Source of the DNA: a virus
Strand: one strand, 5' to 3'
Length of the DNA: 62,531 nt
Virus record (IMG/VR): IMGVR_UViG_3300035698_024459
Location: 1-62,531 of that record
Under the pieces are notes generated by a model that was not told the origin of the DNA, did no database searches, and saw only the letters and a program-made list of their open reading frames with translations. Of the stretch, positions 1,074 through 55,476 are shown piece by piece. The translations under genes were made by a program, and so were the position numbers. Position 1 is the stretch's first letter. Each line of letters begins with the position of its first letter.

Positions 1074-4000
1074 ATGATAAGTATTATTATTCCAACATAT
1101 AATCATGTAAAAGATTATCTACTGCCATGCGTAGATAGTATTATAAAATATACAAATTTAGAAGATGTCGAAGTTGTTATAATTGCAAATGGATGTAATG
1201 ATAATGCTCGTAAACATCTTGAGCTCTTAGGTAGTCCTTTTAAGTTTTTTTGGTTCAATAAAGCATTAGGTTATACTAAATCTATCAATGAAGGAATAAA
1301 AAGATCTAATGGAGAATATATTTTGCTTCTTAATGACGATATTGTTTTATTAGAACAACAGAAAAATTCATGGATTGATATATTAAAAAAACCTTTCATA
1401 GATAAAGATAAAACAGGCATAACTGGTCCTGTAAAATTTAATTGGGATTGTGCGGGGATAAACAGAACAGCAATAGCATTTTGGTGTGCGATGTTCAAAA
1501 GATCACTTGTGGATGAAATTGGTTTTTTAGATGAAATATTTAATCCGGGAATGGGAGAGGATGGAGATTTTTCAATAAAAGCAGAAATAAAAGGATATAA
1601 ATTAATCCAAGTTCCTATTGATCTTAATAATAATTTTAATACAGGATTAATAGATAATTCATTTCCTATCTTTCATAAAGGAAATGGAACATTTGTAAAC
1701 GAAAGTAAAAAAAATAAATATATCGAAAAAAACAATAAGATACTAGAAGAAAGATATGGGATTAAAGAAACAAAATCTATAGAAGAATTAAGTGAATTAG
1801 AAAAGATATATAAAGAATGTTCTAATCACTCATGTGATGTTAATGAATTGTTTCCTATCTTTAGGAAATACGCTTCAGAATGTAAACATATAACAGAATT
1901 CGGAGTAAGAGATGTTTTTTTTACTTATGCGTTTTTAGCTTCAAAACCAGAAAAAATGAAATCTTATGATATTTATACTTGCATTTTAATAAATAATGTA
2001 TACAGAGTTGCTAAAGAAAATAATATAGATTTTTCTTTTACCGAAAAAGATGTTTTAAAAGCAAATATAGAAGAAACAGATCTTTTGTTTATAGATACAA
2101 AACATACATATGATCAATTAGTGCAAGAACTAAAAATTCATTCAAATAAAGTAAAAAAGTATATATTAATGCATGACACTGAAAAATATGGATATCGGGG
2201 TGAAAACGGAGAAGATAAAGGATTAGTTTTGGCTATTGATGAATTCTTGGAAGAAAACAACCAATGGAAAAGGAGAGAAGTTATCAAAAAATCAAATGGA
2301 TTAACGGTATTGGAAAAGGTAAATAAAAAACCATTTATCAGTATAATAATCCCAACTCATAACCATTTAGAAGATGCTTTGAAGCCTTGTTTAGAAAAAG
2401 TATTTTCTTATACAGATTTAAGTAATAAAGAGATTATAGTTGTTCCTAATGGATGCACAGATGGTACTAGAGAATATTTAAAATCACTTGATGATAAGAT
2501 TAAAACGGTATGGCTTGATGAAGCAGGGGGTTATGTAACACCTATTAATGTTGGAATAAAAGAAAGTCAAGGAGATTTCGTTATTCTATTAGATAATGAT
2601 TCGTTTTTATTAGAACAGAATAAAAATGATTGGATAAATACATTGATGCTTCCATTTTCTAATAATAAAAAAACAGGAGCTTCTGGTCCATTTGCTCATC
2701 ATTATGAAGGACTTGGAGATATAATACATAGTGGATGTGCTATGTATAAAAAAGAAGTGTTAGATGAACTAAACGGATTAGATCCTATTTATGGATACGG
2801 ATATTTTTCAGATGTTGACTTAAGTCTTCGAATATCAAAACTCGGATATGATGTGGTTGGAGTTCCAAAAAATGAACATATTGAACAAAAATCACATAAT
2901 CTTTTCGAAATAAATTTCCCCATTTATCATTCTGGATCTTTTACAACAATGAATAAAATAAAAGATATTGATCTTATAAAAAGAAATAGGAAAATGTTGT
3001 ATGATAGACACTTATCTTTATTAAACAAAGATATAGATATTTCAATTATCATTCCAACATACAATCATTGTGATGATTTATTAAAACCGTGTATTGAAAG
3101 TATTATTAAATATACGGATTTATCTAATATAGAAATTTTAGTTTCTGCTAATGGATGTATAGATAATACTAAAGAATATATAGAGAGTCTTCCTTCAGAA
3201 ATAAGATTAATATGGAATGAAAAACAATTAGGTTTTCCTAAAGCCGTTAATGCCGCAATTAAAGAGGCAAAAGGAGAATATATTATCTTACTAAATAATG
3301 ATACTAAGATTCTTCCTAGTGCAACAAACAATTGGACCGAACAATTGAAAAGACCTTTTTTAGAAGAAGAAAATGTTGGAATTACTGGTCCATTAAAATT
3401 GCATGATGATTATGCTAATCATGAAACGTTGATTTTTTTCTGTGTAATGATGAAAAGTTCACTATTTGATGAAGTTGGGATTCTTGATGAAATGTTTTCT
3501 CCGGGAGGTGGTGAAGATATTGATATGTGTGTTAAAACAGTTCGAAAAGGCTATAGATTAATTCAAGTTCCACATAAAACTAGATTAAAGGTTGGAGAAA
3601 CTATAGAAGGAAATTTTACCAATGAAGGTGATTTTCCCATATATCACGCCGGTGAAGGAACTTTTTCTGCAGAAGAAATACCTGAATATGGTTCTAATGT
3701 TATTAAACAGAATGGAATGATTAATTTGAAAAGATACAATAAAAATATTAGATTGAATTTAGGATCAGGTGGAGAAAAGATATCAGGATATTTAAGTGTA
3801 GATAAAAACGATACAAGAGCAGCAATTGTTATGGATGTTTTTGATCTGGACTTTGAAGACGATTCTGTAGAAGAAATGATTTTATCTCATTTATTTGAAC
3901 ATATTAATCCTTATAGATCGATAGAATTATTACACAATCTATTCAAGTTTTTGAAACCTGGTGGAAAAATAATAATGGAACTTCCTGATATAGAAAAATT

Positions 4001-5510
4001 ATGTGAAAATTTCACAAAATCAAACAAAAAAGAAAGATACGGAATTTTAAATTGTATTTATGGAGCTGTTAATACAAAAGACGACAAGCAGGGAGATATA
4101 ACATCTCCTCATTTATGGGGATGGTATCCAGAGATTATATATGATCATCTAAGACAAGCAGGATTCGTAAATATAATATTTGGACCAGAACAAATTCCTC
4201 ATCCAGGATATAATTTTAGAGTAGAAGCAATAAAACCTGTTTCTACTATTTCGAATACAGAAGAAATCTTTTCTGAAGAATCTTTAAAAACAAATCAAAG
4301 TATTATTTATTTTCACGACAATTATGTTGTTAAACAATTCTATGAAGACGATATGTTGACAAACATCGAAGATTTTAAAGATAAAGAAAATAAGTTTTCT
4401 ATTTTTGAGAATCACAACAAAATGAATAATTTATTTGCGTCTGTAAGCAAACATGGGATTATGATTGAAAAAATAGATTATAATTTATGCAAAATGCCAA
4501 GAATGGATTTCAATCTAGGAAGCGAATACAATGTAGATGAAAAGAATATCAGAAGGATGTTGTTTACAATAGACTGCGAAGACATATGTGGTCAATTAGA
4601 TTGTATTGTAGAAGATTTGGATAAATGTAATATCGTTCACAAAGATGTTCACCCAGGAAATCTATTGTTTTCTGAAAGAGATAAAATTATAAAACTATTA
4701 GACTTCTCCTGGTCAACTGATAAAACAAACAAAAAAGATGGATCAGATAGTATATATATTAATAGAGTTTTCAGTATGGATGATCGAAAAGCAATCATCA
4801 TTATAAAAGAAAATATAATCAGAATTTCAGAATCTGTTAAAAAAGAATCAGAAAAACTTAAAAAAAGTTTCAAAAATGTTGCTGGGAAACATAATAATCC
4901 GAGTAATTTCGTAGGAGTTGGAAGAACATATCATCCAATTGATATTCCTTTATTTAGAGATGTTGATTTTTATCATTCAAATTGTAAACACGAATATCAA
5001 ACAATTAAAAATAATATTTCTGGAAATCCTAAAACAACATTAGATATTGGTTGTTCTCTTGGATATTTTACGTTCAATCTTATACGTGATTTTCGTATTA
5101 AAAAAGCAGTTGTATACGAACAAAACGAGGAAGTTAGAAACCTGTTAAATTCAATTAAAAAGATATATGCTCTTGATGAACTTGAGATTAATGATGTTTT
5201 TGATGAAGAAGAATCTATAAAACATACTTCGGATATTGTTATCTGGATGAATAGTCACATGTGGATTCATCAAGTATTCGGAGAAGAAAAAACAAATAAA
5301 ATAACTCAAAACATTATTGATAGTTCTAAAGAAGTATTCTTCCAAACAGCTGGCGATGATAGCGAGAGTACAGGAAAGATTATAACTCTAAAAAACAAAG
5401 AAGAAATAAAAGAAATGTTAAAACAATTAACATCAAAAGAAATTAGTTTTATAGAATCAACAACTCGACATAAAGGACTGAGGCATTTGTTTAAAATATA
5501 TAAACCATGA
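1074..5510 (+). CDS. Seven-module glycosyltransferase / methyltransferase / kinase-like fusion protein
   Basis: A 1478-residue protein that strings together enzymes normally encoded separately. Visible modules: GT2 glycosyltransferase (residues 1-240; start ISIIIPTYNH, acidic motif LLNDDIVLL); a CmcI-like SAM-methyltransferase-type domain (about 262-415; LLFIDTKHTYDQL, YILMHD); a second GT2 (about 422-640; ISIIIPTHNH, LLDNDSFLL); a third GT2 (about 655-880; LLNNDTKIL); a class I methyltransferase (about 890-1060; LNLGSGG, LSHLFEHI, LKPGGKI); a phosphotransferase-like domain (about 1100-1240; HKDVHPGN catalytic loop and LLDFSWS); and a C-terminal methyltransferase (about 1290-1478; TLDIGCSLGYF). 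The next gene begins inside its stop codon, so the two are translationally coupled. It probably assembles or decorates a glycan on the virion or host surface; the substrate is unknown. Base composition is very A+T rich. Confidence 0.85.
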   Translation: MISIIIPTYNHVKDYLLPCVDSIIKYTNLEDVEVVIIANGCNDNARKHLELLGSPFKFFWFNKALGYTKSINEGIKRSNGEYILLLNDDIVLLEQQKNSWIDILKKPFIDKDKTGITGPVKFNWDCAGINRTAIAFWCAMFKRSLVDEIGFLDEIFNPGMGEDGDFSIKAEIKGYKLIQVPIDLNNNFNTGLIDNSFPIFHKGNGTFVNESKKNKYIEKNNKILEERYGIKETKSIEELSELEKIYKECSNHSCDVNELFPIFRKYASECKHITEFGVRDVFFTYAFLASKPEKMKSYDIYTCILINNVYRVAKENNIDFSFTEKDVLKANIEETDLLFIDTKHTYDQLVQELKIHSNKVKKYILMHDTEKYGYRGENGEDKGLVLAIDEFLEENNQWKRREVIKKSNGLTVLEKVNKKPFISIIIPTHNHLEDALKPCLEKVFSYTDLSNKEIIVVPNGCTDGTREYLKSLDDKIKTVWLDEAGGYVTPINVGIKESQGDFVILLDNDSFLLEQNKNDWINTLMLPFSNNKKTGASGPFAHHYEGLGDIIHSGCAMYKKEVLDELNGLDPIYGYGYFSDVDLSLRISKLGYDVVGVPKNEHIEQKSHNLFEINFPIYHSGSFTTMNKIKDIDLIKRNRKMLYDRHLSLLNKDIDISIIIPTYNHCDDLLKPCIESIIKYTDLSNIEILVSANGCIDNTKEYIESLPSEIRLIWNEKQLGFPKAVNAAIKEAKGEYIILLNNDTKILPSATNNWTEQLKRPFLEEENVGITGPLKLHDDYANHETLIFFCVMMKSSLFDEVGILDEMFSPGGGEDIDMCVKTVRKGYRLIQVPHKTRLKVGETIEGNFTNEGDFPIYHAGEGTFSAEEIPEYGSNVIKQNGMINLKRYNKNIRLNLGSGGEKISGYLSVDKNDTRAAIVMDVFDLDFEDDSVEEMILSHLFEHINPYRSIELLHNLFKFLKPGGKIIMELPDIEKLCENFTKSNKKERYGILNCIYGAVNTKDDKQGDITSPHLWGWYPEIIYDHLRQAGFVNIIFGPEQIPHPGYNFRVEAIKPVSTISNTEEIFSEESLKTNQSIIYFHDNYVVKQFYEDDMLTNIEDFKDKENKFSIFENHNKMNNLFASVSKHGIMIEKIDYNLCKMPRMDFNLGSEYNVDEKNIRRMLFTIDCEDICGQLDCIVEDLDKCNIVHKDVHPGNLLFSERDKIIKLLDFSWSTDKTNKKDGSDSIYINRVFSMDDRKAIIIIKENIIRISESVKKESEKLKKSFKNVAGKHNNPSNFVGVGRTYHPIDIPLFRDVDFYHSNCKHEYQTIKNNISGNPKTTLDIGCSLGYFTFNLIRDFRIKKAVVYEQNEEVRNLLNSIKKIYALDELEINDVFDEEESIKHTSDIVIWMNSHMWIHQVFGEEKTNKITQNIIDSSKEVFFQTAGDDSESTGKIITLKNKEEIKEMLKQLTSKEISFIESTTRHKGLRHLFKIYKP

Positions 5511-7081
5511 AAACAATGTTTAATAAAAATTTAATAGTAGATGTTACTGCTTCCGTATCTACAAAAGATAGATATTTTAGTACATTGCCATCGTGTATAA
5601 TTTCTATCGCCAATCAAACGGTCAAACCTAAAAAGTTGATTATTTTCGACGATGGAGAACAAACGGATCTTCGAAAAGAACCGTTATATGTACATCTTTT
5701 TTCTCTTCTTGATCAACAAGGAATAAAATGGAATGTGTTGTTTGGAAAACAAAAAGGACAAGTGGCAAATCATCAGAGTATTCTGGAGATTACAAAAACA
5801 GAATTTATTTGGAGACTTGATGATGATAATATTGCTGAAGCAAATGTCTTAGAAAATCTTATGCGTGAAATGGATGATGATGATGTTGGTGCTGTCGCAG
5901 GATTAGTATTAGATCCAAAAAATCAAATTAATGTTAATCATCATTTTTCACATAATAAGATTGAAGATATATTTTTAGCACAAAATATGCAATGGTTTCA
6001 ACATGCAGACAGTAGTACAAAAGAAGCAGAGCATCTATATAGTAGTTTCCTTTATAGGAAAAATGCAGCACAGCATGGATATTGTAAATATCTATCTCCA
6101 GCTGGACATAGAGAAGAAACTATTTTTACGCACGAAATGCATAGAGCAGGATGGAAATTACTAGTTAATCCAAATATAATAACTTGGCATTTTCGTTCTC
6201 CGTCTGGAGGCATCAGATCATATGACGATAAAAAGTTCTGGGAAAATGATGATAAGATATTCTCTGAAAAAATGAAATTATGGAATGAAAACGCAGAAGA
6301 GAAGATTCCAGTTGTTCTTGACTGTGGACTAGGAGATCATTTGGCTTTCGCTTCTGTTTTAAGAGAATATCCCAAAGAACATAAAAAATTGATTATCGCA
6401 AACTGCTATCAAGAAGTATTTAAGGATTTTGATGTTGATCTAATTAGTATTGAACAAGCAAAAAATATTTATAATGATATAGAAAAATTCAACACATATA
6501 AATGGATGATAGAATATAAAGGAAAAATAAATTTAAAAGAAGCATTCAGAGAAATGTATTTCGACAAAGCAGAAATGACTCCTCATATATGTCGTTCAAT
6601 TGATTTAAGCGAAGTAGACCAGAAGACCGTTGTGATTTCTCCATATTCAAAGAAAATGAGGAATGGAAACAAATATAATCCAAAAGATTATCCTTGGTGG
6701 AGTTATGTAGTAGGAGCTTTGAAGCATAATGGATATAAAGTAATACAAATTGGAACTAAAGGAGAAGATCCACTGGGATCAACTGAATTCCTTCAAGATC
6801 TTAATCTTAAAGATTTAGAAAAAGTTATTAAAAAATGTTTAGTTTGGATATCTGTAGATAATTTCATGGGTCATTTCGGTCATTACATAGATAAACCAGG
6901 AATTGTTATTTGGGGTAAAAGTGATCCAGAGATATTTGGATATGAAGAAAATATTAATATACTAAAAGATAGAAAGTGTTTAAGAGAAAATCAGTTTGGT
7001 CTTTGGGAAGAAGAAGAACAAGATCCCAATGTTTTTGTAGGACCGTTACAGATCGTAGATAAAATCCTAGAATTCAAATAA
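5507..7081 (+). CDS. Two-domain glycosyltransferase (GT2 plus GT9-like)
   Basis: A 524-residue protein starting in an ATGA overlap with the preceding fusion protein. The N-terminal half resembles GT2 enzymes: a nucleotide-binding start (VDVTASVSTKDR), the acidic motif WRLDDDN near residue 105, and a likely catalytic segment around SPAGHREETIF. The C-terminal half (about 270-520) resembles GT9 heptosyltransferases: VVISPYSKK, a DLNLKDLEKVI helix, then SVDNFMGHFGHYIDKPGIVIWG, which matches the usual sugar-nucleotide binding region. It likely works with the upstream multi-domain protein on the same glycan. Substrate specificity cannot be read from sequence. Confidence 0.8.
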   Translation: MKTMFNKNLIVDVTASVSTKDRYFSTLPSCIISIANQTVKPKKLIIFDDGEQTDLRKEPLYVHLFSLLDQQGIKWNVLFGKQKGQVANHQSILEITKTEFIWRLDDDNIAEANVLENLMREMDDDDVGAVAGLVLDPKNQINVNHHFSHNKIEDIFLAQNMQWFQHADSSTKEAEHLYSSFLYRKNAAQHGYCKYLSPAGHREETIFTHEMHRAGWKLLVNPNIITWHFRSPSGGIRSYDDKKFWENDDKIFSEKMKLWNENAEEKIPVVLDCGLGDHLAFASVLREYPKEHKKLIIANCYQEVFKDFDVDLISIEQAKNIYNDIEKFNTYKWMIEYKGKINLKEAFREMYFDKAEMTPHICRSIDLSEVDQKTVVISPYSKKMRNGNKYNPKDYPWWSYVVGALKHNGYKVIQIGTKGEDPLGSTEFLQDLNLKDLEKVIKKCLVWISVDNFMGHFGHYIDKPGIVIWGKSDPEIFGYEENINILKDRKCLRENQFGLWEEEEQDPNVFVGPLQIVDKILEFK

Positions 7082-7165
7082 AGGAAAATCTATCTTTTTT
7101 ATTGTAAAAAACAATATACTCCTTGACTTTTAATAGTGGTCCTTCGGACGGAGGAGACGATTGAT

Positions 7166-8254
7166 ATGGCTCGTTTTAATCAAGGTAGAATCTTTCGCAA
7201 AAATGCGACCTTTACAGCAGGCACTTCTATAGCTTCGACTAAACTTGGTCAAGTTAATTTCATATCCGTTTCAAGTGCTAAAGTCAATCTTCCAGTAAGC
7301 ACAAAAGCTGATGAAGGCGATTATATCATTGTAGCTGCCAATGGCGTAAATGTGGTTAAAGTTATATCGAAATCAGGGGAATCGGAAACCACACTAGCTA
7401 CATTAAACAATTCCGCAATGCAATTTAATAGAGTTCCTACTTCTGGATCATGGGTTGGTTTAGATCTACAGGGAGGAGATGCTACATCACAAAATTTCTT
7501 CAAAAGTATATCTGCCGATGCTGGTGAAACTGTTGTTGCTGACAATCCTAGTGATACAGCTAATATATTAGGAGGTACACAAGTAAATACATATAGTTCA
7601 GGAGATACATTAAGAATTAATGTAGAAAAATATGGAGTAAAAAGAGATGCAACTGGAGATATTGTATTTAGAGAAGCTACATTATTAAATAATGTAGATG
7701 GATTATCACATACTTTGTCTGCCGTAGGAACAACATTTCCAACGGGAACAACACAAAGTGTTGAACTTTCACCTAAAAGAAGTAATGTATCTTCCGTAGA
7801 TAATTTAGGTCTTCGATTTGGAAAAATTAGTAAAATAAAAGGAAAAGTTTATATTAATCTTACGAATACAAATATATCACAATCAATGACATCTATTAAT
7901 CATGTTTTTAATTTTAATTTAAAAGCTATTTTAGGAAAAGAAACTGATACGAATTTTACTACAAATATAATTTCTGAATCTTTTACTGTTGGTATAAATA
8001 GTAGTTTTGGTACACTTCTTCCTGGTAAAGGGACAACTGTAACAGAAACTTTTTCTTTTGAAAGAACGGGACCATCAATAGATCAGTTATCAAGAAACAT
8101 TACAAACGGATGGGCACTGAGAGATGAATTAACGGATATGTTATGTGTTGGAAAAGGACAGAGAGGAGGAACAACTGTTCCTGCAGTTAATCAAATTGTT
8201 ATTGAAGTAACTTCTCAAAAAGCATATAATACACTTGTACAAAGAAGTGGGTAA
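7166..8254 (+). CDS. Virion-type repeat-family protein, paralogue 1
   Basis: A 362-residue protein. I place the start at 7166 because GGAGGAG lies at a good distance before this ATG and MARFNQGRIFRKNATF aligns with the starts of the next two genes; an upstream in-frame start at 7136 would add ten unrelated residues. The first 110 residues are a beta-rich module (VNLPVSTKADEGDYIIV) shared with both neighbours. A second shared stretch reads YGVKRDATGDIVFREATLLNN near residue 160. The C-terminal part differs among the three. It is presumably a fibre, decoration or adsorption protein; the class is inferred from context. Confidence 0.7.
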   Translation: MARFNQGRIFRKNATFTAGTSIASTKLGQVNFISVSSAKVNLPVSTKADEGDYIIVAANGVNVVKVISKSGESETTLATLNNSAMQFNRVPTSGSWVGLDLQGGDATSQNFFKSISADAGETVVADNPSDTANILGGTQVNTYSSGDTLRINVEKYGVKRDATGDIVFREATLLNNVDGLSHTLSAVGTTFPTGTTQSVELSPKRSNVSSVDNLGLRFGKISKIKGKVYINLTNTNISQSMTSINHVFNFNLKAILGKETDTNFTTNIISESFTVGINSSFGTLLPGKGTTVTETFSFERTGPSIDQLSRNITNGWALRDELTDMLCVGKGQRGGTTVPAVNQIVIEVTSQKAYNTLVQRSG

Positions 8255-8262
8255 TTATAATA

Positions 8263-9369
8263 ATGGCTAAATTTAAAAATGGTTTTATTCATAAAAATGC
8301 TGAAATATTTGCAAGCAGAAATATTACTTTAACATTAACTGGTGCATCTAAACAAATTAATTTCATTCAAGCAATTGCAAACATTGATGTTGTTCTTCCT
8401 ACTGCTTCTGCAGGTTCATTTTTTGAAATATCTAATATTGGAAGTGGAGGATTTGATATTTCAGTTAAGCTTCCATCTACTAGCGGAACAATCGGTACAG
8501 TAAAAGACGAACAAACAAAATCTTACATTTCAAGTAGCGCAACATGGATCCAACTTAAGGAATCTTCTGGATTATCAAATAATCTTTTTCAAAAAATAAC
8601 AACTGATTCAGGGACTGTAGCTGCACATACAAGTAGTGATATATTAAAAATTAATGGTGGAAATTATAGTACAGCAGTAGTTGATACTGGAAATATAAAA
8701 ATAACTCCTGATGCAAATAAATATGAAGTAAAAAGAGATGTTACTGGACAAACTCTTTTTACTGGTTGTAGTTTTTTAAATAATTCATCATCTACTTGGA
8801 ATACAAGTCTTAATTCTGATACTTTTACGAAAACTCCAATTAAAGTTGATACAATAAATATAAACACAGAAACAAGTAACACGATAAACGCAACTGGTGA
8901 AAAATTTGGTGGATCTTTTTTTTATAGAAATGATATAATAATAAAATCAAAAGTATTACTTTTAGTTTCTGGTGTAAAATCTACAGGAGATTCCACATAT
9001 AAAGTCAGTAATAGCCCAATTATATATCAAGACATTAAAGCTAAATTTTTTAATAAAACAGGGCTTTCTACAACATTTACCGATACTAATATAAAACGTT
9101 CTCCAAAATTTTCTTTTACAGTTACCAGACCTGTAACAGGAACAACATCAGTATCCGCTTATGCGATAAACACTTCAACAATTAATATAGGAAAGGAATC
9201 TAATCAAACAAATTCAAATAATATTCTTTTATCATTAAAATTAAAAATGGATATAGAAAATCTTTCTATGAAAAGTTTTAGTTTGTCGTCTAGACAAGAA
9301 ATTAATTCTATAAATATGTCTATCAGGCATAAAATATTAAAAAGAACATATATGGCAAGGATTGGATAA
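8263..9369 (+). CDS. Virion-type repeat-family protein, paralogue 2
   Basis: A 368-residue paralogue of the preceding and following genes. It begins MAKFKNGFIHKNAEIF, has the shared N-terminal beta module (IDVVLPTASAGSFFEI) and the KYEVKRDVTGQTLFTG segment near residue 155. No cysteine clusters, membrane segments or catalytic motifs are seen. It follows its paralogue after eight bases and ends immediately before the next start, so the three are one transcription unit produced by tandem duplication. Probably a virion surface protein. Confidence 0.7.
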   Translation: MAKFKNGFIHKNAEIFASRNITLTLTGASKQINFIQAIANIDVVLPTASAGSFFEISNIGSGGFDISVKLPSTSGTIGTVKDEQTKSYISSSATWIQLKESSGLSNNLFQKITTDSGTVAAHTSSDILKINGGNYSTAVVDTGNIKITPDANKYEVKRDVTGQTLFTGCSFLNNSSSTWNTSLNSDTFTKTPIKVDTININTETSNTINATGEKFGGSFFYRNDIIIKSKVLLLVSGVKSTGDSTYKVSNSPIIYQDIKAKFFNKTGLSTTFTDTNIKRSPKFSFTVTRPVTGTTSVSAYAINTSTINIGKESNQTNSNNILLSLKLKMDIENLSMKSFSLSSRQEINSINMSIRHKILKRTYMARIG

Positions 9370-12703: not shown

Positions 12704-14854
12704 ATGGATAAACAAATACATATAGAACAAAATACTGGAACGATCAATATATATAACAGTAATGATGATAATAGAGACAAGAACAAAGAAACGATATCTA
12801 TTGCCGCTATTGATAAATATAGTTCTCCATTAAAAGCACATGTTGAAATGACTCGTTGGGGAAAGAATATGCATAGGGTTTCTTTTCTGATGGAAAATCC
12901 ATTGATGGGACAGGTTTTACAACAAAACTACTTAACATACAACGAATACGAAGAAGCAAGAGATGTTTTCCACTCTATAGTATCGATGATGGAAGAGTTT
13001 AAAAAAGAGGCAGAAAAAGAATTAATTCATAGTGCAGTTATGATTCCAAGAATTTGGAAAAGAATGGCTGTATACACCGACGATCTTCATAAACCAGAAT
13101 CTGATGATTTATTACGTAGATTTAGAAATCTAGAAACATTAAACACATCAAGTATACCTGCTGGACTTTTATTCCATCCTGTTAATTCACATTTCCCAAG
13201 TCATGAAGGGATCGTAGATACTCATTTTTCCGGAAACGAAAGGGTTGTAAAAGACGCTTCTGGACTTTCGTTCTATTTCTCTGAAAATGAAGAAGTTGTA
13301 AAAGCGGCATCAAAACAACAACCTCCAATATTGAATCTTAGAAAAATAGACAAACATAATCAGAATAAAAGGTTAGCATATTTTAACGATTTTCTAAATA
13401 TGTGGGAACGAAAGAAGTTTGACTTCACTAAGTTCGCCTCAATTATGGTTCCTCTGAAACATGAGAGTAAATCAATCCGAGATATCAAGCGTAATGCAAT
13501 GATGCAAATTAAACCATTATTTCATTCTGAAAATAGACGAAAATGGATTTTAGCAAACGAGAAAAAGGTGGAAGATGCTATATCTATGATGGGAGAATAT
13601 GCTGTTGACCCAGGAATGAATAGTAGAGAAATCGATATTGATAAATACGATCTGTTCCTTTTTGACGCAGACAGAACGATATGGGAAGGCGAAGTACCTG
13701 CAATGGCCATGGAAGGTCCATATAAACGCAAGGGAGACACCGTAATCGATTCCAAGGGACAGAAACTGAAGTTGGTAGATGGTATTCGTGAAATTTTAGT
13801 TGGGCTTAGAGCAATTGGAAGAGATGTTGGACTAATCAGCAAATCAGAAAAAGAAGGAGTAGACTATCAAGACCAACCAGTTATTAAGATTTTACATGCT
13901 TTTGGGCTACTCGATGTGTTCAACGAAATGATTGTAATTGAACGAAAAATACCAAAAAGTGCATTCATTCCCAGTGGAGAACGAGTAATATTTATCGATG
14001 ATGAAATAGCGAATTTATATGAAGTAGCACAACATTCTGACGCCGATGTGGCCAAGGCAGAAGAATTTATGGATTATCCATTTTCAGAAAATGGTAAGTG
14101 GGTAGAAGAAGATATTGAACCCATTGAGGTTATTGAGTTGAAAGAGGGAGAAACAGAAGAAGATATTCAGGAATGGATTCAGGGAGAAGACGAAATTATT
14201 TTCCAAATCGAAAAAAATGTCTTCGTTCGTGCTAGAATAAAAACAGAAAAATTATTAGAGTGGGAAAAGCCTATACAAAATACTGTTTCTGCAGCTAAAA
14301 AAGAAAATGTAGAATATGTTGAGTGTCCTAAAGAATGTGGACCTCCAAGTGGATCGATGGCTGTTCATTTTGAATTGGAAAAAGAAGATGGGAAAATGTG
14401 GATCCCCCAAAGTAGAAAAAAAGAATATGATGAAACCTGTAAAAAAATAAAAGAAGATCTAAAATCTGAGTCAAAAAACTGGTATAAAGAATCTAAGAGA
14501 GATTATATCCCTAAATCAGAGCAACCAGATAAACCGCAAGATGGGAAAGAATACGAGTTAGATCATAAAAAATCAAGGAACAAAGGCGGGAAAGACGAAA
14601 AGAAAAACCTCCAATGGATGGAGAAAGACAAACATAAGAAAAAAAGTCAAGAAAATGGTGATTTTAAAGACGGTGGAGACAAGAAAGTCAAGCAAGAAAA
14701 GGGGAAAGGACAAAAATCATATCATAATTATCAGAAATCCTGTGGAGAAGCCAAGCAATCTAAAGATAGAAAAGAATTAGGTGAATCTGGGTACAGTAAA
14801 AAACAAAAAGAGGTCGCAGACGCCCGCTGGGCTAAAGAGAAAAAGAAAAAATAA
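12704..14854 (+). CDS. HAD-type phosphatase domain fused to a C-terminal HNH-like nuclease motif
   Basis: A 716-residue protein. An N-terminal helical region of about 300 residues is not recognised. A HAD domain follows: the nucleophile motif LFLFDADRTIW (DxDxT) near residue 317, GLISKS near residue 375 and VIFIDDEIANL near residue 430. The last 180 residues are highly charged, with an HNH-like motif at about residue 615 (YELDHKKSRNKGG followed by NLQWM), then a Lys-rich tail. No linker intein is visible, so this is one continuous chain. HAD domains remove phosphate, so end-processing of nucleic acid is a possible combined role, but that is inference. The leader contains a hairpin that may mask its ribosome binding site. 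Confidence 0.65.
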   Translation: MDKQIHIEQNTGTINIYNSNDDNRDKNKETISIAAIDKYSSPLKAHVEMTRWGKNMHRVSFLMENPLMGQVLQQNYLTYNEYEEARDVFHSIVSMMEEFKKEAEKELIHSAVMIPRIWKRMAVYTDDLHKPESDDLLRRFRNLETLNTSSIPAGLLFHPVNSHFPSHEGIVDTHFSGNERVVKDASGLSFYFSENEEVVKAASKQQPPILNLRKIDKHNQNKRLAYFNDFLNMWERKKFDFTKFASIMVPLKHESKSIRDIKRNAMMQIKPLFHSENRRKWILANEKKVEDAISMMGEYAVDPGMNSREIDIDKYDLFLFDADRTIWEGEVPAMAMEGPYKRKGDTVIDSKGQKLKLVDGIREILVGLRAIGRDVGLISKSEKEGVDYQDQPVIKILHAFGLLDVFNEMIVIERKIPKSAFIPSGERVIFIDDEIANLYEVAQHSDADVAKAEEFMDYPFSENGKWVEEDIEPIEVIELKEGETEEDIQEWIQGEDEIIFQIEKNVFVRARIKTEKLLEWEKPIQNTVSAAKKENVEYVECPKECGPPSGSMAVHFELEKEDGKMWIPQSRKKEYDETCKKIKEDLKSESKNWYKESKRDYIPKSEQPDKPQDGKEYELDHKKSRNKGGKDEKKNLQWMEKDKHKKKSQENGDFKDGGDKKVKQEKGKGQKSYHNYQKSCGEAKQSKDRKELGESGYSKKQKEVADARWAKEKKKK

Positions 14855-16360
14855 CTATTTTTTACATTTAGAACACCAATACCCAGATTTGATGTAGGCA
14901 TAAGATGCCTCCCACTTATGTCCATTTTCACATCTCCATAATAAATTAGTTTGGTTATTTGTATATTTTTTAGATAAACATTCTCCTTTCTTTAATTTTG
15001 CTATTTCTTTCATTTCCTCAATTGTTAATCTTACATTATCTCCTATTTTTCCTTTATTACAATGAGGACACCATGATTTATCGTTTATAACACAATCAAA
15101 ATGTGATTCCCAAATATGTCCTTCTGAACATTCCCAAGTTAATTTTTTTCCAACAATATATTCTTTAGATAAACATTCGCCTCCTCTTGATTTTGCAACA
15201 TTTTGAATTTTTTGAATAGTTGTTGTTCTGTTTTGAAGACTACATATTGGGCACCAACAATTACTATGTTTAATCGTCATTGGAGACGACTCCCATTTAT
15301 GTCCTTTCGCACAACTCCATAATAATTTCGTTTTTACATCAATATATTTATTTGATAGACATTTTCCGCCATGCTTTTCTGCAATTTCTATTAGACTTCT
15401 TAACATCCCTTTGTTTCCTACAAAAAAATTAAAATTGATATCTTTAATATTTAATATTGGCTCTATATTAAAATAAGAAGATATCCCATCATATATGAAT
15501 TTTATTAGATTATCATTTTTTTTTGCTTCATAATATGGTATCGTAAATAATTTTATATTTTTTTCTTTACATATTATATTTTTTTTCTTATCCCTTGATT
15601 TTATAGCATCAAAATCTTTTTTTGTTTGATTGAAAAAGTTTTTTAATTCATTATAATGTTGTTCTCCATTATATTCAAAAGCACAATTTAGATCTTTAGA
15701 GTATCCATCTAGTTCAAGATTTCCACCTAAAATACTTCTTGTTTTTTTAAATTTGAAATCAGTTATTATTTCAATTATATATCTACATTTTTCTTCCGTT
15801 ATATTAGTATGACAGTGAGGACACCATCTCCCATTTTTTATACCTCCAGGAGTAGACTTCCACTGATGCCCCTCCTCACACTCCCATAATAGTTTCGTTT
15901 TTATATCTATATATTTCGTTGATAAGCATTTTCCATTTCGTTTATCAGCTAATTTATGCATTTCTTTAATATCTAGTCTATGTTCATTATCGGCACAAAA
16001 AGGACACCATGAACCATTCTTAACGTTACTAGGAGATGCTTCCCACTTGTGTTTGTTCTCACATTCCCATAAAAGATTTGTTCTATTGTTAGTATATTTA
16101 CTTGATATGCATTTTCCTTTTCTTTTTATAGCTAATTGCTTCATCATATCAATCGTTAATTTTTCTTTTCCAGCACATTTTGGACACCATGATTTGCTAT
16201 CTTTTATATCATGTGGTCTTGCCATCCATTTATGACCTTTTTCACATTCCCATAATAATTTTATTCTATTATTAATGTATTTTTCCGAAAGGCATTTTCC
16301 GTTTTTAGATTTAGCAATATTTTTCATTTCCTCAATGTTTAATTTTTTTGTAGATTTCAT
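14855..16360 (-). CDS. Zinc-ribbon-repeat protein with an embedded PD-(D/E)XK-like nuclease domain
   Basis: A 501-residue protein; I start it at 16360 because AGGAGG lies just upstream, whereas the longer open frame begins with an unrelated hydrophobic stretch. It has six copies of a roughly 58-residue unit (GKCLSxKY..., LLWECxxGHxW, WCPxC), typical of the probable zinc-ribbon DUF4379-like family. Three copies precede and three follow a central domain (about residues 185-305) with NLELDGYSKDLNCAFEYN then GEQHY, a nuclease-like acidic core as in homing-type endonucleases. It is on the opposite strand between two plus-strand blocks and ends at the stop of the HAD-HNH gene, typical of a mobile homing gene. 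Confidence 0.75.
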   Translation of the reverse strand: MKSTKKLNIEEMKNIAKSKNGKCLSEKYINNRIKLLWECEKGHKWMARPHDIKDSKSWCPKCAGKEKLTIDMMKQLAIKRKGKCISSKYTNNRTNLLWECENKHKWEASPSNVKNGSWCPFCADNEHRLDIKEMHKLADKRNGKCLSTKYIDIKTKLLWECEEGHQWKSTPGGIKNGRWCPHCHTNITEEKCRYIIEIITDFKFKKTRSILGGNLELDGYSKDLNCAFEYNGEQHYNELKNFFNQTKKDFDAIKSRDKKKNIICKEKNIKLFTIPYYEAKKNDNLIKFIYDGISSYFNIEPILNIKDINFNFFVGNKGMLRSLIEIAEKHGGKCLSNKYIDVKTKLLWSCAKGHKWESSPMTIKHSNCWCPICSLQNRTTTIQKIQNVAKSRGGECLSKEYIVGKKLTWECSEGHIWESHFDCVINDKSWCPHCNKGKIGDNVRLTIEEMKEIAKLKKGECLSKKYTNNQTNLLWRCENGHKWEASYAYIKSGYWCSKCKK

Positions 16361-16452
16361 TATGTTCCTCCTATATTTATCATATTCAAAACTAGGAGAA
16401 GAAAACTCCTTTATTAAAATAGAGAAAAAACGATGGAACAAAAATAAGTTTG

Positions 16453-16509
16453 TCGTACAATATAGAGTAAGAAAAATTTTCAGGAACAAGAAGTAGATTA
16501 TCGTATAAG
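16453..16509 (+). promoter_or_regulatory. Candidate promoter(s) for the 16550 gene
   Basis: TCGTACAAT at 16453-16461 and TCGTATAAG at 16501-16509 are near-copies of the TCGTATAAT element seen elsewhere in the window. The second lies about 40 bases before the start codon of the P-loop gene. No TTGACA is found at the expected distance. The assignment rests on similarity to the recurrent motif. Confidence 0.4.
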
Positions 16510-16549
16510 ATATCTTGTAGGGCACTTAACTTGAAAGAAGGATATTGCT

Positions 16550-33382: not shown

Positions 33383-33685
33383 TCATCGCTTATGTTCTTT
33401 GTTTATTTTAGATAAATTTTCTTTTATTAATTTATTAAACCCATCTGGATTCATTTCGCAATGTCTGTAGTAAAGATTTTTTATTCTTTCAGTTTCTTTT
33501 TTTTCTTTTTCTATTTCAGAACATTCAATTATTCCATTTCTTTTTAAAAAAGATAAAATTAAAAACAAAATAGAAACAATATTTCCAAAAATACATGAAA
33601 AAAGATTCCATAATATCAAAAATATAGTTATGATAAAATCTTCTACAAAAGATATAATCCACATTGGCCCATATTTTTTCCACAT
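33383..33685 (-). CDS. Small membrane protein, 100 residues
   Basis: Two hydrophobic stretches near the N terminus (IITIFLILWNLF and IVSILFLILSFL) form a likely helical hairpin, followed by a charged cytoplasmic-type tail with cysteines (RHCEMNPDGFNKLIKENL). Its start codon shares one base with the stop of the LAGLIDADG gene (TAATG). It may be a minor membrane or lysis-accessory protein; no family recognised. Confidence 0.55.
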   Translation of the reverse strand: MWKKYGPMWIISFVEDFIITIFLILWNLFSCIFGNIVSILFLILSFLKRNGIIECSEIEKEKKETERIKNLYYRHCEMNPDGFNKLIKENLSKINKEHKR

Positions 33686-34614
33686 TATATTTTATCTTTT
33701 TGGATCATTTCTTTGGCTTCTATGGGAGAGTGTCCAGACTTAATATACGATATGTATAATGGATAAGCCCACTTATATGAGTAGCATTCTATAGGACATG
33801 ATCCTAAGATCTCGTAAAAACGATCAAAACTCTTCGATGATAGTCTTATACGATGTCTCCCAGGCTTCATTGTAATGGTCGCTGTGATTCCCATGCCAGC
33901 CAGCTGAGGCAATACGATGGATTCCAATTCTTCTCGACTGAAAGAACAGGCGTAAATCGTTATCTGCCAACATTTCTTGGAATTCCCACGGTGATCTTTC
34001 CCGGCAGAATATAATCCTGCTGTTCCATCTCCTATAAACCAATGACGGAGTATGGTTGGGGTTATAATAAGATCTTCTGGGATATGTTTTATAGGTTTTT
34101 TGTCTTCTGGGACTATATAGAATTGATTGTAGATGGGTAAAAGATCTGGATGACATTGAGATCTTAGATGATAACTATAATAATCTTCTCCAGTAGTTGT
34201 TTTTTTACCATGTTTTTGTTTTGTTACATCTTTCCATCTTAAAGAAGGCATAATACTTGGTAGCCATTCTAGATATTTTCTAAACTTTGAAGAATGTCTA
34301 TAATATGGTAAAGAATCACCAGTATTTCTTTTGTCTATAGTTGAATTTCCATCTCCAAGAAGTTCTCCATAAATTATCTCTCTTTCTAGGACGGTAAGTG
34401 CGGGCTGTATCTCCGTCCCATTATAGTGAACCATCAAAGCTTCGCTTTTACTTCTAACGGATATGCCAAATTTCTTCAAATAACCACCAATAGTTTTATG
34501 GCTTTTCATTCCAAACATATCAGCAATTTCTTGCTGAGACTTTCCGTCAACAGAATAAAGCCTATTGAGTTCTTCTTTTGCGATTTCGTATTTCTGAGTT
34601 CCTTTAACCGTCAT
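33685..34614 (-). CDS. Free-standing LAGLIDADG homing endonuclease with an N-terminal helix-turn-helix
   Basis: A 309-residue protein. The first 60 residues hold a helix-turn-helix (SQQEIADMFGMKSHKTIGGY). Two LAGLIDADG-type helices follow: REIIYGELLGDGN near residue 85 and LRHWFIGDGTAGLY near residue 200, each ending in the acidic catalytic residue. Such enzymes cut DNA and spread their own gene. No intron or intein boundary is visible around it, so it is a stand-alone homing gene between the small-gene run and the capsid terminator. A TCGTATAAT element lies 29 bases upstream, and the ribosome binding site is AAAGGAG. Confidence 0.85.
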   Translation of the reverse strand: MTVKGTQKYEIAKEELNRLYSVDGKSQQEIADMFGMKSHKTIGGYLKKFGISVRSKSEALMVHYNGTEIQPALTVLEREIIYGELLGDGNSTIDKRNTGDSLPYYRHSSKFRKYLEWLPSIMPSLRWKDVTKQKHGKKTTTGEDYYSYHLRSQCHPDLLPIYNQFYIVPEDKKPIKHIPEDLIITPTILRHWFIGDGTAGLYSAGKDHRGNSKKCWQITIYACSFSREELESIVLPQLAGMGITATITMKPGRHRIRLSSKSFDRFYEILGSCPIECYSYKWAYPLYISYIKSGHSPIEAKEMIQKDKI

Positions 34615-37965: not shown

Positions 37966-40900
37966 TTATTTACTTTCCGATGAAGACGCTGTCACTTTGT
38001 ATACTTTATCTTCTTCGGAATCATACACGAAGACAATTCCTTCGTTTTCCGTTGCTTCAAGACGATCTTCGTTAATTTCTTTAGCCTGTGCGACTTTCGT
38101 AATTGCGGCCTGTGTAGCTGTAACTTCTTTATCATCTTCATCTTTTTCGGCAATTTTTACAGAATCTTCTGTCGAAGCTGTATTAGGACCGGTTGTTGCA
38201 TGATTTTCTTCACTTGATGCTGGGGTTGCGTCTAAACCATCTTGGAAGTCCTGAACATATCCGTCTGGATTTCCAGAAGTTTGTTTGTCTCCGGACTCTT
38301 CGTCGAATTTAGGTTTTTCACCACCGATACCGTCTCCGGAACCATCTCTTGGAACGACCGAGTCATTGTGTAAGTTTGTTCCACCAGGACCGAGATCGTA
38401 GTTTGTATCACGGATTTCTGTTGGATTATCTACATCTGGTCTTTTTACATCAATTTCTGGTTTCGCTTTTGATTCATCACGAGGAACATCTAATGTATCT
38501 TCTGAATTCCCAGGTGTTTTTTCTTCTTGAATCGCATCAACTGGCTCAGTTTTATTTGTACTATTTGATTGTTGAGCTTTCTTTACGGTGACTTTAACAT
38601 TTTTTGCGACAAGAGCTTCTTCCATAACTTCTGGGGTAATCACCGGTTTTAAAATGTTTTCGATTTCTTGACCAATTGCGTTCAATTGTTCTTCGTCAAT
38701 TTTCGATAGCATATCACTTATTTCGGCTACTTTTTCTGTTTTCGTAAAAGCGTCTGCTGTTTTCTCAACTGTTTCTGTTGAAGTTTCTTTTAATTCTTCG
38801 TTTTTTTCTGGCTCAATAACTTCTACGCCTCTTTCCGGTCCGTCTGCAATTTCTTCTACCTGAAGCGTACTACCAGCTGCTGTTCCTTTCATTTCTTTTG
38901 CAGTGTTTTCGTTTTCGTCGAGATAGGCTTCTATTCCACCTTCGTCACGAATTCCTTCATCTTCATCGCGAGGAACTTCAACTTCGGTATCGAGAGGCAT
39001 TGTCAAGCCAAGAGCTTGAGCTACTTTGGAAATATCTACATTACTTCCGCCTGACCTGTCGGTTCTTCCAATAGCTCCGCCTCTAAGAAGTTCTGAAGTT
39101 TTCATAGACTCTTCTTTAGCTGCGGAAGCACTCAACATCGTTCCTTCACAAGGAGCAACTGGAGCTGGTTCACTGTCCATCATAGTTCCGTCAGTGAAAA
39201 ACGAACTAAGGATCGCATCCCCATCTAACTCTTCAGGTGCCATTTCTTCTTCTTCTTCCATGATCAATTCGTTGCCAGGCTCAAGCCCTTCTGGACCTTC
39301 GAGTCCAAGTTCATCACCAAGATCGTCACCAAGCTCGTCACCAAGATCTTCACCAAGCTCGTCACCAGGAACAACATCTGTCTCAAGAGAGAATTCACCA
39401 GGATTACCTTCTGAGTCTACAAACTGAACGGTGATTCCCTCTATTTCAGAGATATCTTCAAGTGCTTCTTCAACACCCTTTGCTCCGCTATCTTCTTCAC
39501 CTTCAAACTCGACCTCATCTTCTCCGTTATCTTCGGTTTCAAATTCGGTTTTGTCTTCAACTTTATCTTCTTCGTTTTCTCCGTTTTCTTCACCATTCTC
39601 TTCGCCGTTTTCTTCGCCGTTTTCTTCGCCGTTTTCTTCTTCGCCAAATCCATTATCTTCTTCTTTTTCTTCATTTTCATCGTTCTCGGCAAATGGATTT
39701 CCTTTTCCACTATCTTCATTATCTTCTTCGATAAGAGCTGTTTTATTCATTGCGAAATCTCTAATTGCACAACAGATTTCTTCTGCGTTATCATCGCTGT
39801 ATCCGTTACCAACCTGATCACTCATACAGGCGAGCATTGAATTATTTTCTTCATTGGCAAGAGCAAATCTAACTAGACCATTACGGTTGGAAAGAATCTG
39901 ATGTAAAGCTTGTTTGATTTCATCACAATCTTCGCATTCTGCCGTAACACCATATCCACCCTTTGTTCCATCTTCGTAAACTTTTTCAGTATCTGAAATT
40001 GAAAGATTAGGTTGCATAATCATCTGTGCTTCGACTTTGCCTTTTCCGGCGTTTCTAATGGTAACATAAGTTTTGCATCCGCAATCGACACAATGTCCCT
40101 CGCTCTCTTTAAAGGCAACTTTTCTTGAGGAACATTGTGGGCAAATTAGACCAAGTGGGGAGAGAATTTTCTTTCTAGCAATGATCATTTTACGACCTTT
40201 ATTAACGAAGCATCTAGGATCATTGATTTTAAAATCAAAACGAAGAGAAGCTGTTCTTGTCCAATGATTTGCGTCAGCCATTGGAGGAGCCATCATTTCT
40301 CCACCAGCTGGTGGCATTGGAGGTACAGGAGCTGTTGCTGCTGCAGGCTCTTCTGAAAGCTGATCATTAATATCTTCGCCTTCAGTATCTTCGAATTCAT
40401 CTTCTGTTTCTTTTGCGAATCCAATATCAGCAAAATCTTCTGGATTCAACAGATCCATATTAATATTAACGCTATATTTAGCACCACATGCATTACAGTT
40501 ATATTTCCCGTCCATAGCGTCAACATCTTCTGAACCACAAAGTGGACAAACTTGACCGAATGGTTTCGCTTCACCTTTTAATTCGTCAACTCCCTCTTCA
40601 AGAATGTCTCCGGTAATATCTTCATTGATAGGAGGAACTCCGGTAAGGTCTTCAAGACCACCAACACCAGCTGAACCGGCCATATCTCCTGGGGCTCCTC
40701 CACCTGGAGGTGGAAGCGTTGTGCCATTGGGATTCTGAGCGTTTCTTTTCATTTTCTTGCTATCAGCAAGTGCTTGAAGTCTCTCCACAGTTCCTGCTCC
40801 TATCATTTGGCCCTTGGCTGAAGCTATTTCAGGCATTGTAGACATTTCATCAACCGATTCGTTTCTTTCATCCAAAACATCACTAGTGTCTTCAATTTGC

Positions 40901-44427: not shown

Positions 44428-47400
44428 TTATTCTGGAATAAGATTTTCTAATTCATTTTTTTCTTTAACTAAATTCCTCATTTCTTCATCATTTTCCTTA
44501 TCTATCTCGACTAAATCTTCAGATATAACCTCTGCATCCTTTTTTATTTTTTCTATTGTTTCGAAATCGATGTCATCCTGAATATTTTTTGCCATCTTTT
44601 TAAAACCATCGTCTATAACGAGACCTTGTTCTGATGTCATCTGTTCTGTATGATCTAGTTCAATATCTTCTATTTCGACACTTACAGATCCATTTTTAGT
44701 AATTTGAGTTTCATCATATGTATATCCTCCGGCAGCAAAAACAGTTTTCCCAATTTGATTGATTTTTGCAGATTTTGACATAATATCGACAGATTTTATA
44801 ATTTCGGATATTACATCTTGCATATAATATTTTATCTGATCCTCGGTAAATCTAAGGATTGACCATCCATGACGGGCAATGCGGGAATCTCTTTCTTGAT
44901 CTCTAGCGACATCATCTGGGGCAGCATGCCATTGCTTTCCGTCTGCCTCTACGGCAAGTTTAATATCTGGAAAAACTCCATCGCAAACAATACTTGAACA
45001 ATTTTCATCATATGGTACTGGATTCTGTTGCCAATAAAATGGTAAATCAATGTTTCCATTTTTTTGTGCTTTTTCTACTTCTGCGTACAGTAATTGTTCA
45101 ATGTCTGTTAGACGAAATGCAGCTGTTCTAGGACCGGTATACATTTCATTTTCTTGTGTTTCCGGTAATTGTACTTGAGGTTTTTTAGGTTCTTTCATTC
45201 TACTTTTTCTCGTAATTGATGGGGCATATTCTTTTGCTTTATTATAATTTGTAAGCTGAGTTTCATATGCCGCCATTGCTCCACCTTGAGGTGCTCCTCC
45301 ACTCATTGACGGAGCAATACTATCTCCTGGTAAACCGAGTCCAGACTGTCCTCCAGGAAGATTACCGCCGATATCTCCTCCGATACCTTTTGGTTTTCCT
45401 CCTCCAAGTCCTCCACCACCACTCATTCCTCCGCCGCCACCGCCGAAACCTCCACCCATTCCTCCAGGTTTTCCATCTGAACCTTGAGGGGCAATTCCCA
45501 TTTGCTGCTGGAATATTTGTTCCATTCTTACTCTTTCTGTTTCTGTATTGTAATCAATGTCTAATTGTTCACATATAAACTGTGTAGACACAATCTGCTT
45601 ATCCCATAATTGCATGTACATCTGGTTTTTCTGAGTTTCATCTCTTAAGTTCAAATCAGACCATCGTATATCTGGATAGTCTAAAACCGTTTCACCAGAA
45701 AGGTTTTTCTTATAAAACCCTCGCATTTTAGATTCTAATTTATAAACCTTTTCCGTAATCCAATTAGACATCATTTGTTGAACTGTTTTCAATCTTTTAA
45801 TAGTAGCTTCGATTCCAATCGCCGCTTGCGAATTACCATGAATGGAAATTAAACCATTTCTCATTGATATAAAAATGCCATTCGGAACCTTTAGACACCA
45901 AACTTTCCCTTTGTATGGAATTCGAAATATAGAAGGTTCTTTTTTGTTTGTTATATAGTTTTGTTTTTGAATTTTAGGAGTTTTGCCTATATTTGTATTT
46001 GGAGACCAATAAATTACCCAAATATCTTCTATTTTTTCTGATTCATTTTCTTTCAGATTGAATCTAGGAGAATGTTCTAATTTTATTAAAATCTCCATTA
46101 TATCATCACGCAATTGTGTTGATGTTGTATTGTATGTAAAATATTGTTTTTCGGTATCTTCCTTCTTAGTCGCTTTTCTTACACTTCCATCTCCAGCTAC
46201 CAAAGATTTCAACAGGATAACTAGTTTGTCTTTGGGTAAATTCTTCATCCATAATGGAATTTTTTTTCCTTCTGCATATTCTCCAAAGTATGTATTGAAT
46301 TGTTCGGCCAAATCTTTCCCATAAAGAATAAATCTCTGATGATCTTTCCCAGATTTCAACTTTTTAATATCATTTGATTTTTTAAACCCTTTAAATTCAT
46401 CATATGTATTTTTAAAAAGGTTATAACTGGAGTTAGCTAAATTCTGTGTATAAGAAATTCCTGTTTTAGGAGCCCTAGATCTTTCTTTGCCGTTAAACTC
46501 AAAATTGTTTTCTCTATCATAATTTCTATTTTCTTTAAAATAACATCCTTCAGAAACAAATATGCCAGACAATGTCAAGAATAAATCGATATCGTTATTT
46601 AAACATAATTCATCTATATTGCCTGGGATAGTCCCGTTCCATTCATTTATGCTGCATTTGAAATGCATATTTTCTTCAATATCTTCAGCTGGAATAATAT
46701 TCCATTCATCTATTTTTTTACTGTAATTTTGTTTAGTCTTAACTAGCATTCTATGGTTATGGGTACATATGAAATCTACTCTATTGGTTTTGAAATAATA
46801 AAGATCTTCATCATCTCCATCTATAGAATCATGAGTGAATTCATATTTGTCTTCTGCCTTTTGATATTCCAATTCTCCTGTATCTTTATTATATGTTGCT
46901 ACTGAATCATTTTCTAAATCGAAATCATCATTAGATACGAAACCTCTTTGAGTCATTACTAATGTATTAGTGTCAAAACAGTATGATGGACCCGTACCAC
47001 TGAGGAGCGCCTCATTAACACCAAGGCCCTTAATCAGAGCTTGATCGATCAATTCATATTCTTTTGTCAGCTGTAAAACCTTACCAGCTGCTCCGACCCA
47101 TTCGAAATCAAAGGCATGATGTGTAACTAAAGTTAGATTTGGGTCATTAGCTGTTGTTGCAAGCTGCTGTTGTGTATCTGAAATATCAGCAGCTGAAGCG
47201 GGACGCTCATCATTTCCGATTTTACATATTTTAATAGGGAGAATATGTCGTTCAGCGACAATCCACTGTGCTTGGCGTAAACGATCCTGATATGCGAGTA
47301 TCGGGAATAAAGGAGTAAGAATGCTACTTCCATATGCCATATATGGAATTTCATCATGTTTCATATGAGTAACGGTTCTATTGCTCAGCTGAATTGGTTT

Positions 47401-55463: not shown

Positions 55464-55476
55464 GAAGATTTCTCCG

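Follow-up and report, generated by a model that had tools for sequence, protein, structure and literature searches.

The open reading frame (ORF) at positions 1074-5510 (+ strand) of IMG/VR virus record IMGVR_UViG_3300035698_024459 is a single frame of 1478 codons without an internal stop, and the encoded chain joins, in order, a family 2 glycosyltransferase (GT2), a CmcI-like methyltransferase (MT), two further GT2 modules, an MT, a protein-kinase-like domain and a last MT, with the catalytic motifs present. The window (the whole stretch of DNA analysed) is a viral contig of 62.5 kb, a fragment which also encodes a portal protein, a major head protein and a sigma factor. The chain is interpreted here, with middling confidence, as a multi-enzyme maker of a methylated, perhaps phosphorylated, oligosaccharide whose most likely destination is the phage's own fibres. 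A sequence-only reading of the same DNA had counted seven enzyme domains (three glycosyltransferases, three of methyltransferase type and one kinase-like), and this count was confirmed with positions shifted by a few residues: the glycosyltransferase (GT) starts expected at about residues 1, 422 and 655 were found at residues 2, 422 and 656 (Pfam PF00535), while the HKDVHPGN core placed near residue 1185 is located at 1189-1196. The domains of the chain are as follows.

1074-1763, + strand: GT2 module A, residues 1-230, with NDD at 87-89 and ED at 162-163 (Pfam PF00535).
1782-2327, + strand: MT_A, residues 237-418, RMNT_CmcI / Methyltransf_24-like, motif TEFGVR (from the PF04989 matches of its relatives).
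2331-3017, + strand: GT2 module B, residues 420-648, with DND near 507-509 and SDVD replacing EDxD (Pfam PF00535).
3033-3713, + strand: GT2 module C, residues 654-880, with NND near 741-743 and ED at 814-815 (Pfam PF00535).
3714-4247, + strand: MT_B, residues 881-1058, class I, motif LNLGSGG (Methyltransf_11).
4296-4883, + strand: protein-kinase-like domain, approximately residues 1075-1270 (Pkinase, E 6e-4; solved kinases, E 8.5e-5).
4941-5507, + strand: MT_C, approximately residues 1290-1478, motif LDIGCSLGYF at 1323-1332 (phrog_4752, E 2.8e-5; TIGR04290, E 0.009).

PF00535 matches the chain in three stretches (E 1e-58), and the features of GT2 enzymes, namely the GT-A fold, the DxD-like metal site and the catalytic aspartate, were found. 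An AlphaFold2 model of module C together with MT_B (residues 651-1058, folded with 24 relatives) reached a predicted local distance difference test score (pLDDT) of 89.4 and a predicted template modelling score (pTM) of 0.85; its GT part adopts a GT-A fold, with 6p61_B as the best match in the PDB (Z 21.1) and with WrtF, chondroitin polymerase and RmlT also matched (Z 18-21). Matches to polypeptide N-acetylgalactosamine (GalNAc)-transferases (Z ~20) were not taken to indicate protein O-glycosylation: equal scores are reached by other GT-A enzymes, and a shared fold does not reveal the acceptor. Loss of the catalytic acids across relatives, named beforehand as the observation that would refute the sequence-only reading, was not seen: the aspartates of NND and of ED are both present in 176 of 177 distinct GT modules, and the only module without both is a truncated piece. 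Module B has SD where the other modules have ED, with the aspartate retained.

A search with an alignment of six GT modules recovered relatives at 41-59% identity in viral contigs and best cellular matches at 21-34%, and on this sequence comparison the module is assigned to a phage-specific GT2 subfamily (the GT family hereafter). Architectures of the relatives were read with profiles built from the search matches. Two of them, L005 and L016 (IMGVR 3300027896_005002, 416 kb, and 3300003852_000044), have exactly the order GT-MT_A-GT-GT-MT_B, equal to residues 1-1058 of the window chain; this identical order rules out chance or chimeric assembly for that part, and L005 together with the conserved neighbour gene at 5507-7081 rules out a chimeric assembly. 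The remaining tail, comprising the kinase-like domain and MT_C, lies within the same open frame, and the G+C content is 0.24-0.33 throughout. The other relatives carry the same modules rearranged (L011, L004, L166 and L213), divided between two genes (L003 and L023) or accompanied by extra FkbM, Methyltransf_24, GT17 and GT2 modules, the longest such chain reaching 2494 amino acids.

The mutual identity of the three GT modules (38-47%) had raised the possibility of a recent tandem duplication, which was ruled out by a tree of 148 GT modules: the nearest relative lies in the same protein for only 8 of the 102 modules belonging to multi-GT proteins. Module A clusters with the first GT modules that precede MT_A in L005 and L011 (support 0.87-0.92), module B falls in a clade of 15 second-position modules (support 1.0), and GT modules placed before MT_B have a nearest foreign relative which also precedes MT_B in 25 of 30 cases (label-shuffled mean 5.9). 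Because the tree neighbours lie in other proteins at like positions, the three GTs are old separate lineages kept by position, as would be expected if each makes a different linkage. The idea of an assembly line, put forward by the sequence-only reading, thus stands in part: position-specific GTs fit distinct steps; however, phages differ in how the modules are ordered, divided and joined, so that the sequence of reactions cannot be deduced directly from the arrangement.

MT_A alone gives a weak Pfam match (E 0.002), while its relatives match RMNT_CmcI (PF04989), the rhamnosyl O-methyltransferase/CmcI family, in 7 of 8 cases (best E 1.9e-6) and are encoded in 542 viral stretches. MT_B matches Methyltransf_11 above the Pfam cut-off (E 6e-5), is conserved in the alignment of relatives, follows a family GT in about 30 phage proteins and has its fold inside the confident model of residues 651-1058. 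The three modules are assigned to the class I methyltransferases dependent on S-adenosylmethionine (SAM), which are marked by motif I and a Rossmann fold, more weakly for MT_C, where the assignment comes from the motif and phrog_4752 only. The building of a glycan with methylation, as previously proposed, is therefore well supported, whereas the methyl-phosphate cap proposed along with it goes beyond the evidence, as the kinase-MT tail is found in no relative.

The acceptor is suggested by the genes that accompany the family. Among the genes recurring near GT arrays is a collagen-like tail fibre family, and collagen repeats (PF01391) occur in all 24 large records that hold the GT family versus 4 of 22 control records (44-237 kb) without it. 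In the loci of the GT phages, serine occupies the Y position in 92% of 3107 Gly-X-Y triplets; in 3 of 4 control arrays this position holds glutamine. The sampling was also reversed, with viral records selected by a DNA pattern encoding (Gly-[Tyr/Phe]-Ser)3-Gly or by one encoding (Gly-X-Gln)4-Gly: the GT family was present in 19 of 48 Gly-[Tyr/Phe]-Ser records and in 0 of 50 Gly-X-Gln records (Fisher p 1.3e-7). With about equal amounts of fetched DNA (0.98 vs 0.96 Mb), a family GT was found in 27 of 120 Gly-X-Ser loci versus 0 of 120 Gly-X-Gln loci, and the GT-positive loci reduce to 24 independent sequences at an identity threshold of 95% and to 18 at one of 80%. The nearest repeat run (six triplets; placeable in 26 loci) lies on the strand of the GT in all of them, mostly upstream of it, with a median gap of ~0.7 kb. 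Since both sets are of fibre type, the contrast is not merely one of GTs lying near tail fibres. Four close relatives of the window chain (L003, L004, L011 and L023) have a Gly-X-Y run within 1.2-3.9 kb. The placement of relatives beside serine-rich collagen-like fibres suggests that phages of this kind glycosylate their own fibres with tailor-made chains of sugars, and from these fibres we infer the probable target in the present phage.

The main competing explanation, which is considered unlikely, is that the chain alters the O-antigen or capsule of the host and so blocks the attachment of competing phages. It matches the published proposal for GT clusters in cyanophages, pelagimyophages and jumbo phages (PMC7824862, PMC7029224), the enzyme content resembles that of ORF6 of Klebsiella O7, an O-antigen enzyme (PMC11231755), and the partner gene downstream of the chain contains a GT9 heptosyltransferase-like part. 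Nevertheless, no flippase, polymerase or transporter was recognised among the annotated neighbours, and a change of the host surface does not predict an association with Gly-X-Ser but not with Gly-X-Gln fibre genes.

T4-like phages employ glycosyltransferases to modify DNA bases, and some members of the GT family reside in T4-like genomes with homologues of Gp23 and Gp20. It could accordingly be asked whether the modules place a methylated oligosaccharide on hypermodified bases of the phage DNA for protection against restriction. Such a role appears highly improbable: the window genes scanned included no recognisable pyrimidine hydroxymethylase or related enzyme, the family adjoins fibre genes, and the link to serine-rich repeats would be left unexplained.

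Several observations weigh against a fibre-directed, capped glycan. The Gly-X-Ser association could follow phage lineage instead of function; 29 of the 48 Gly-X-Ser records, many of them fragments, lack the GT family; Gly-X-Y runs of at least four triplets are absent from the 62.5 kb of the window; and none of the database families names a fibre as the acceptor. As for the cap, no clear relatives of the kinase-like domain or MT_C were found in viral contigs, 46 family records, phage and plasmid records or ~360 cellular genomes, the same searches returning nothing beyond four marginal matches (E 2.7e-4 to 5.7e-4), and a single-sequence AlphaFold2 prediction of residues 881-1478 (pLDDT 32) gave no usable kinase or MT_C fold. 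The capping step is therefore the least secure part of the proposal, its kinase-MT tail being unique to the window contig and without a modelled fold. A search for the domain order in other phages, which the sequence-only reading had suggested, bore it out for residues 1-1058 and in no relative for the tail.

The absence of the tail from relatives lends some weight to the alternative that only the GTs, MT_A and MT_B are active, the kinase-like domain and MT_C having been acquired recently and having a role that is unrelated or lost, with no methyl-phosphate cap being made. Downstream of MT_B, most relatives that continue carry FkbM or another methyltransferase and others end there, the tail being absent from every one. 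At the sequence level, however, the kinase-like domain has the marks of the protein-kinase-like superfamily, namely the beta3 lysine, the HxDxxxxN loop and a DFG-like motif (K1087 in VVK; H1189, D1191 and N1196 in HKDVHPGN 1189-1196; DFS 1210-1212 in LLDFS 1208-1212). The intact K, HxD, N and DFx residues and SAM motif argue against decay, and this alternative is regarded as rather unlikely.

Under the preferred reading, a methylated and perhaps phosphorylated glycan for the phage's own fibres, the soluble chain would make one short oligosaccharide inside the infected cell. Each of the three GT2 modules would add a different sugar, the CmcI-like MT_A and MT_B would methylate sugars (MT_B acting on the residue added by the preceding GT), and the GT2/GT9 protein of the next gene would extend or start the glycan chain. 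The kinase-like domain and MT_C, a putative locally acquired end piece, could phosphorylate and methylate the terminus in the manner of WbdD-type terminators. The acceptor would most likely be a fibre of the phage particle and, in the relatives, serine residues within (Gly-X-Ser)n repeats of collagen type; the finished glycan might serve receptor binding, shielding or fibre stiffness. A broader proposal is advanced tentatively, as possible though on balance not probable: a large class of phages would possess a modular system of protein O-glycosylation, in which the GT2 subfamily and exchangeable MT and GT modules place methylated glycans on (Gly-X-Ser)n serines, with the present phage adding a methyl-phosphate cap.

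Neither this chain nor the Gly-X-Ser association was found described in the literature searched, which left out most subscription journals; partial parallels are nonetheless available, A064R of a chlorovirus and ORF6 of Klebsiella O7 being the nearest among characterised enzymes. A064R of the chlorovirus PBCV-1 is a virus-encoded GT-GT-methyltransferase whose domains have been shown biochemically to act in turn on the capsid glycan, and A111/114R of the same virus is a three-GT chain (PMC9614988, PMC7826918). The phage chain resembles A064R in combining several GTs and a methyltransferase in one soluble virus-encoded polypeptide, a likeness of architecture and shared domain types only. A064R, unlike the phage chain, belongs to a eukaryotic algal virus, acts on the N-glycan of a capsid protein and has three domains with no kinase domain described; its first domain has been compared with family GT34 and its second constitutes a new GT family. 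In Klebsiella pneumoniae O7, ORF6 is arranged as methyltransferase-kinase-coiled coil-GT2-GT2, and its kinase-methyltransferase pair caps the glycan (PMC11231755). Likened by domain content, both polypeptides unite GT2 modules, a methyltransferase and a kinase that is hard to recognise; in contrast, the bacterial O-antigen enzyme has an N-terminal terminator, a coiled-coil ruler and a different kinase type, whereas the phage chain, with three modules each of the GT and methyltransferase types, carries its terminator-like part C-terminally. WbdD of E. coli O9a, a methyltransferase followed by a protein-kinase-like domain, phosphorylates and then methylates the glycan end (PMC3482155). The pairing of a methyltransferase with a protein-kinase-like domain is shared with the phage chain, but WbdD has no GT in its chain and ends in a C-terminal coiled coil; in sequence searches of the PDB, it was absent from the hits of the divergent kinase-like domain. 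Mimivirus L230, a collagen lysyl hydroxylase and glucosyltransferase, attaches sugar to collagen-like proteins of the virus itself (PMC9614988), as is proposed here for the phage relatives, although L230 acts on hydroxylysine, while the phage repeats have serine, not lysine, at Y and no hydroxylase is involved. By analogy, the phage chain would work like a mix of A064R, O7 ORF6, WbdD and L230, differing from each in content and order.

The chain is flanked in the window by the end of a fibre-like ORF and by a gene resembling a baseplate connector, with the partner gene between the chain and the latter.

3-413, + strand: truncated ORF, C-terminal end, which reads like a tail fibre (NVGIGVTDPDAKLEVNG; sequence pattern and weak match to tail fibre phrog_9942, E 0.028).
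5507-7081, + strand: partner gene of 524 amino acids, GT2 plus GT9-like (PF00535, E 3.8e-12; PF01075, E 3e-5).
7136-8254, + strand: tail-associated protein downstream of the glycan genes (phrog_677, baseplate wedge / tail fibre connector, E 1.2e-7).

The partner gene overlaps the chain gene by 4 bp. Its relatives are present in 84 of 93 family loci and are fused to a family GT in 25 ORFs, and because they recur and fuse in this manner, the gene pair of the window represents one of the ways in which a larger, shuffled set is arranged. A motif shared between the fibre-like ORF at 3-413 and the Gly-X-Ser fibres was tested for and not found.

Among the relatives, collagen-like proteins whose Y positions almost all hold serine (GYSGFSGISG...) adjoin a phage-specific GT2 gene at L068:8535-9926, L003:3972-6707, L011:16599-20438 and in the L291-L410 set. 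One TAG lies inside collagen-like frames at G045:C1:8477-8650 and at G046:C1:37344-37517, and related GT modules of L025 (G021:C1:88155-90603) are broken by stop codons, reflecting decay or stop-codon recoding in either instance. In L002, a chain of 2393 amino acids with at least five GT2, two GT17 and two methyltransferase modules is flanked by three MORN-like repeat proteins (GDKxWYLNGxLHRxDGPA) at 194-610, 7844-8281 and 8278-8628. A nucleotide-sugar epimerase/dehydratase (L022:12547-13503) directly follows the GT chain of 2494 amino acids, and some phages of the family may thus make their own sugar donor. Elsewhere in the window, positions 12704-14854 encode a 716-amino-acid protein with a central HAD-type magnesium-dependent phosphatase domain (MDP-1-like, E 4e-9) and an HNH-like stretch near its C-terminus, followed by an HNH/DUF4379 endonuclease (14855-16525, - strand); a LAGLIDADG homing endonuclease lies at 33685-34614 (- strand). 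The portal protein (44428-48177, - strand) occupies a frame of 1249 amino acids, with the portal match confined to residues 36-399 and ~850 residues unexplained, and very long frames of 1896 and 1804 amino acids are present at 37966-43656 and 50109-55523 (both - strand).

The function of most phage-encoded glycosyltransferases is usually guessed as alteration of the host O-antigen or of the phage DNA, and the contrast between Gly-X-Ser and Gly-X-Gln fibres supplies a concrete candidate acceptor. If the proposal is true, these phages decorate their collagen-like fibres with serine-linked glycans that they build themselves. This would have consequences for adsorption and for how a phage appears to bacterial surfaces and to competitors; furthermore, the family would provide ready-made multi-enzyme chains for the production of defined methylated glycans.

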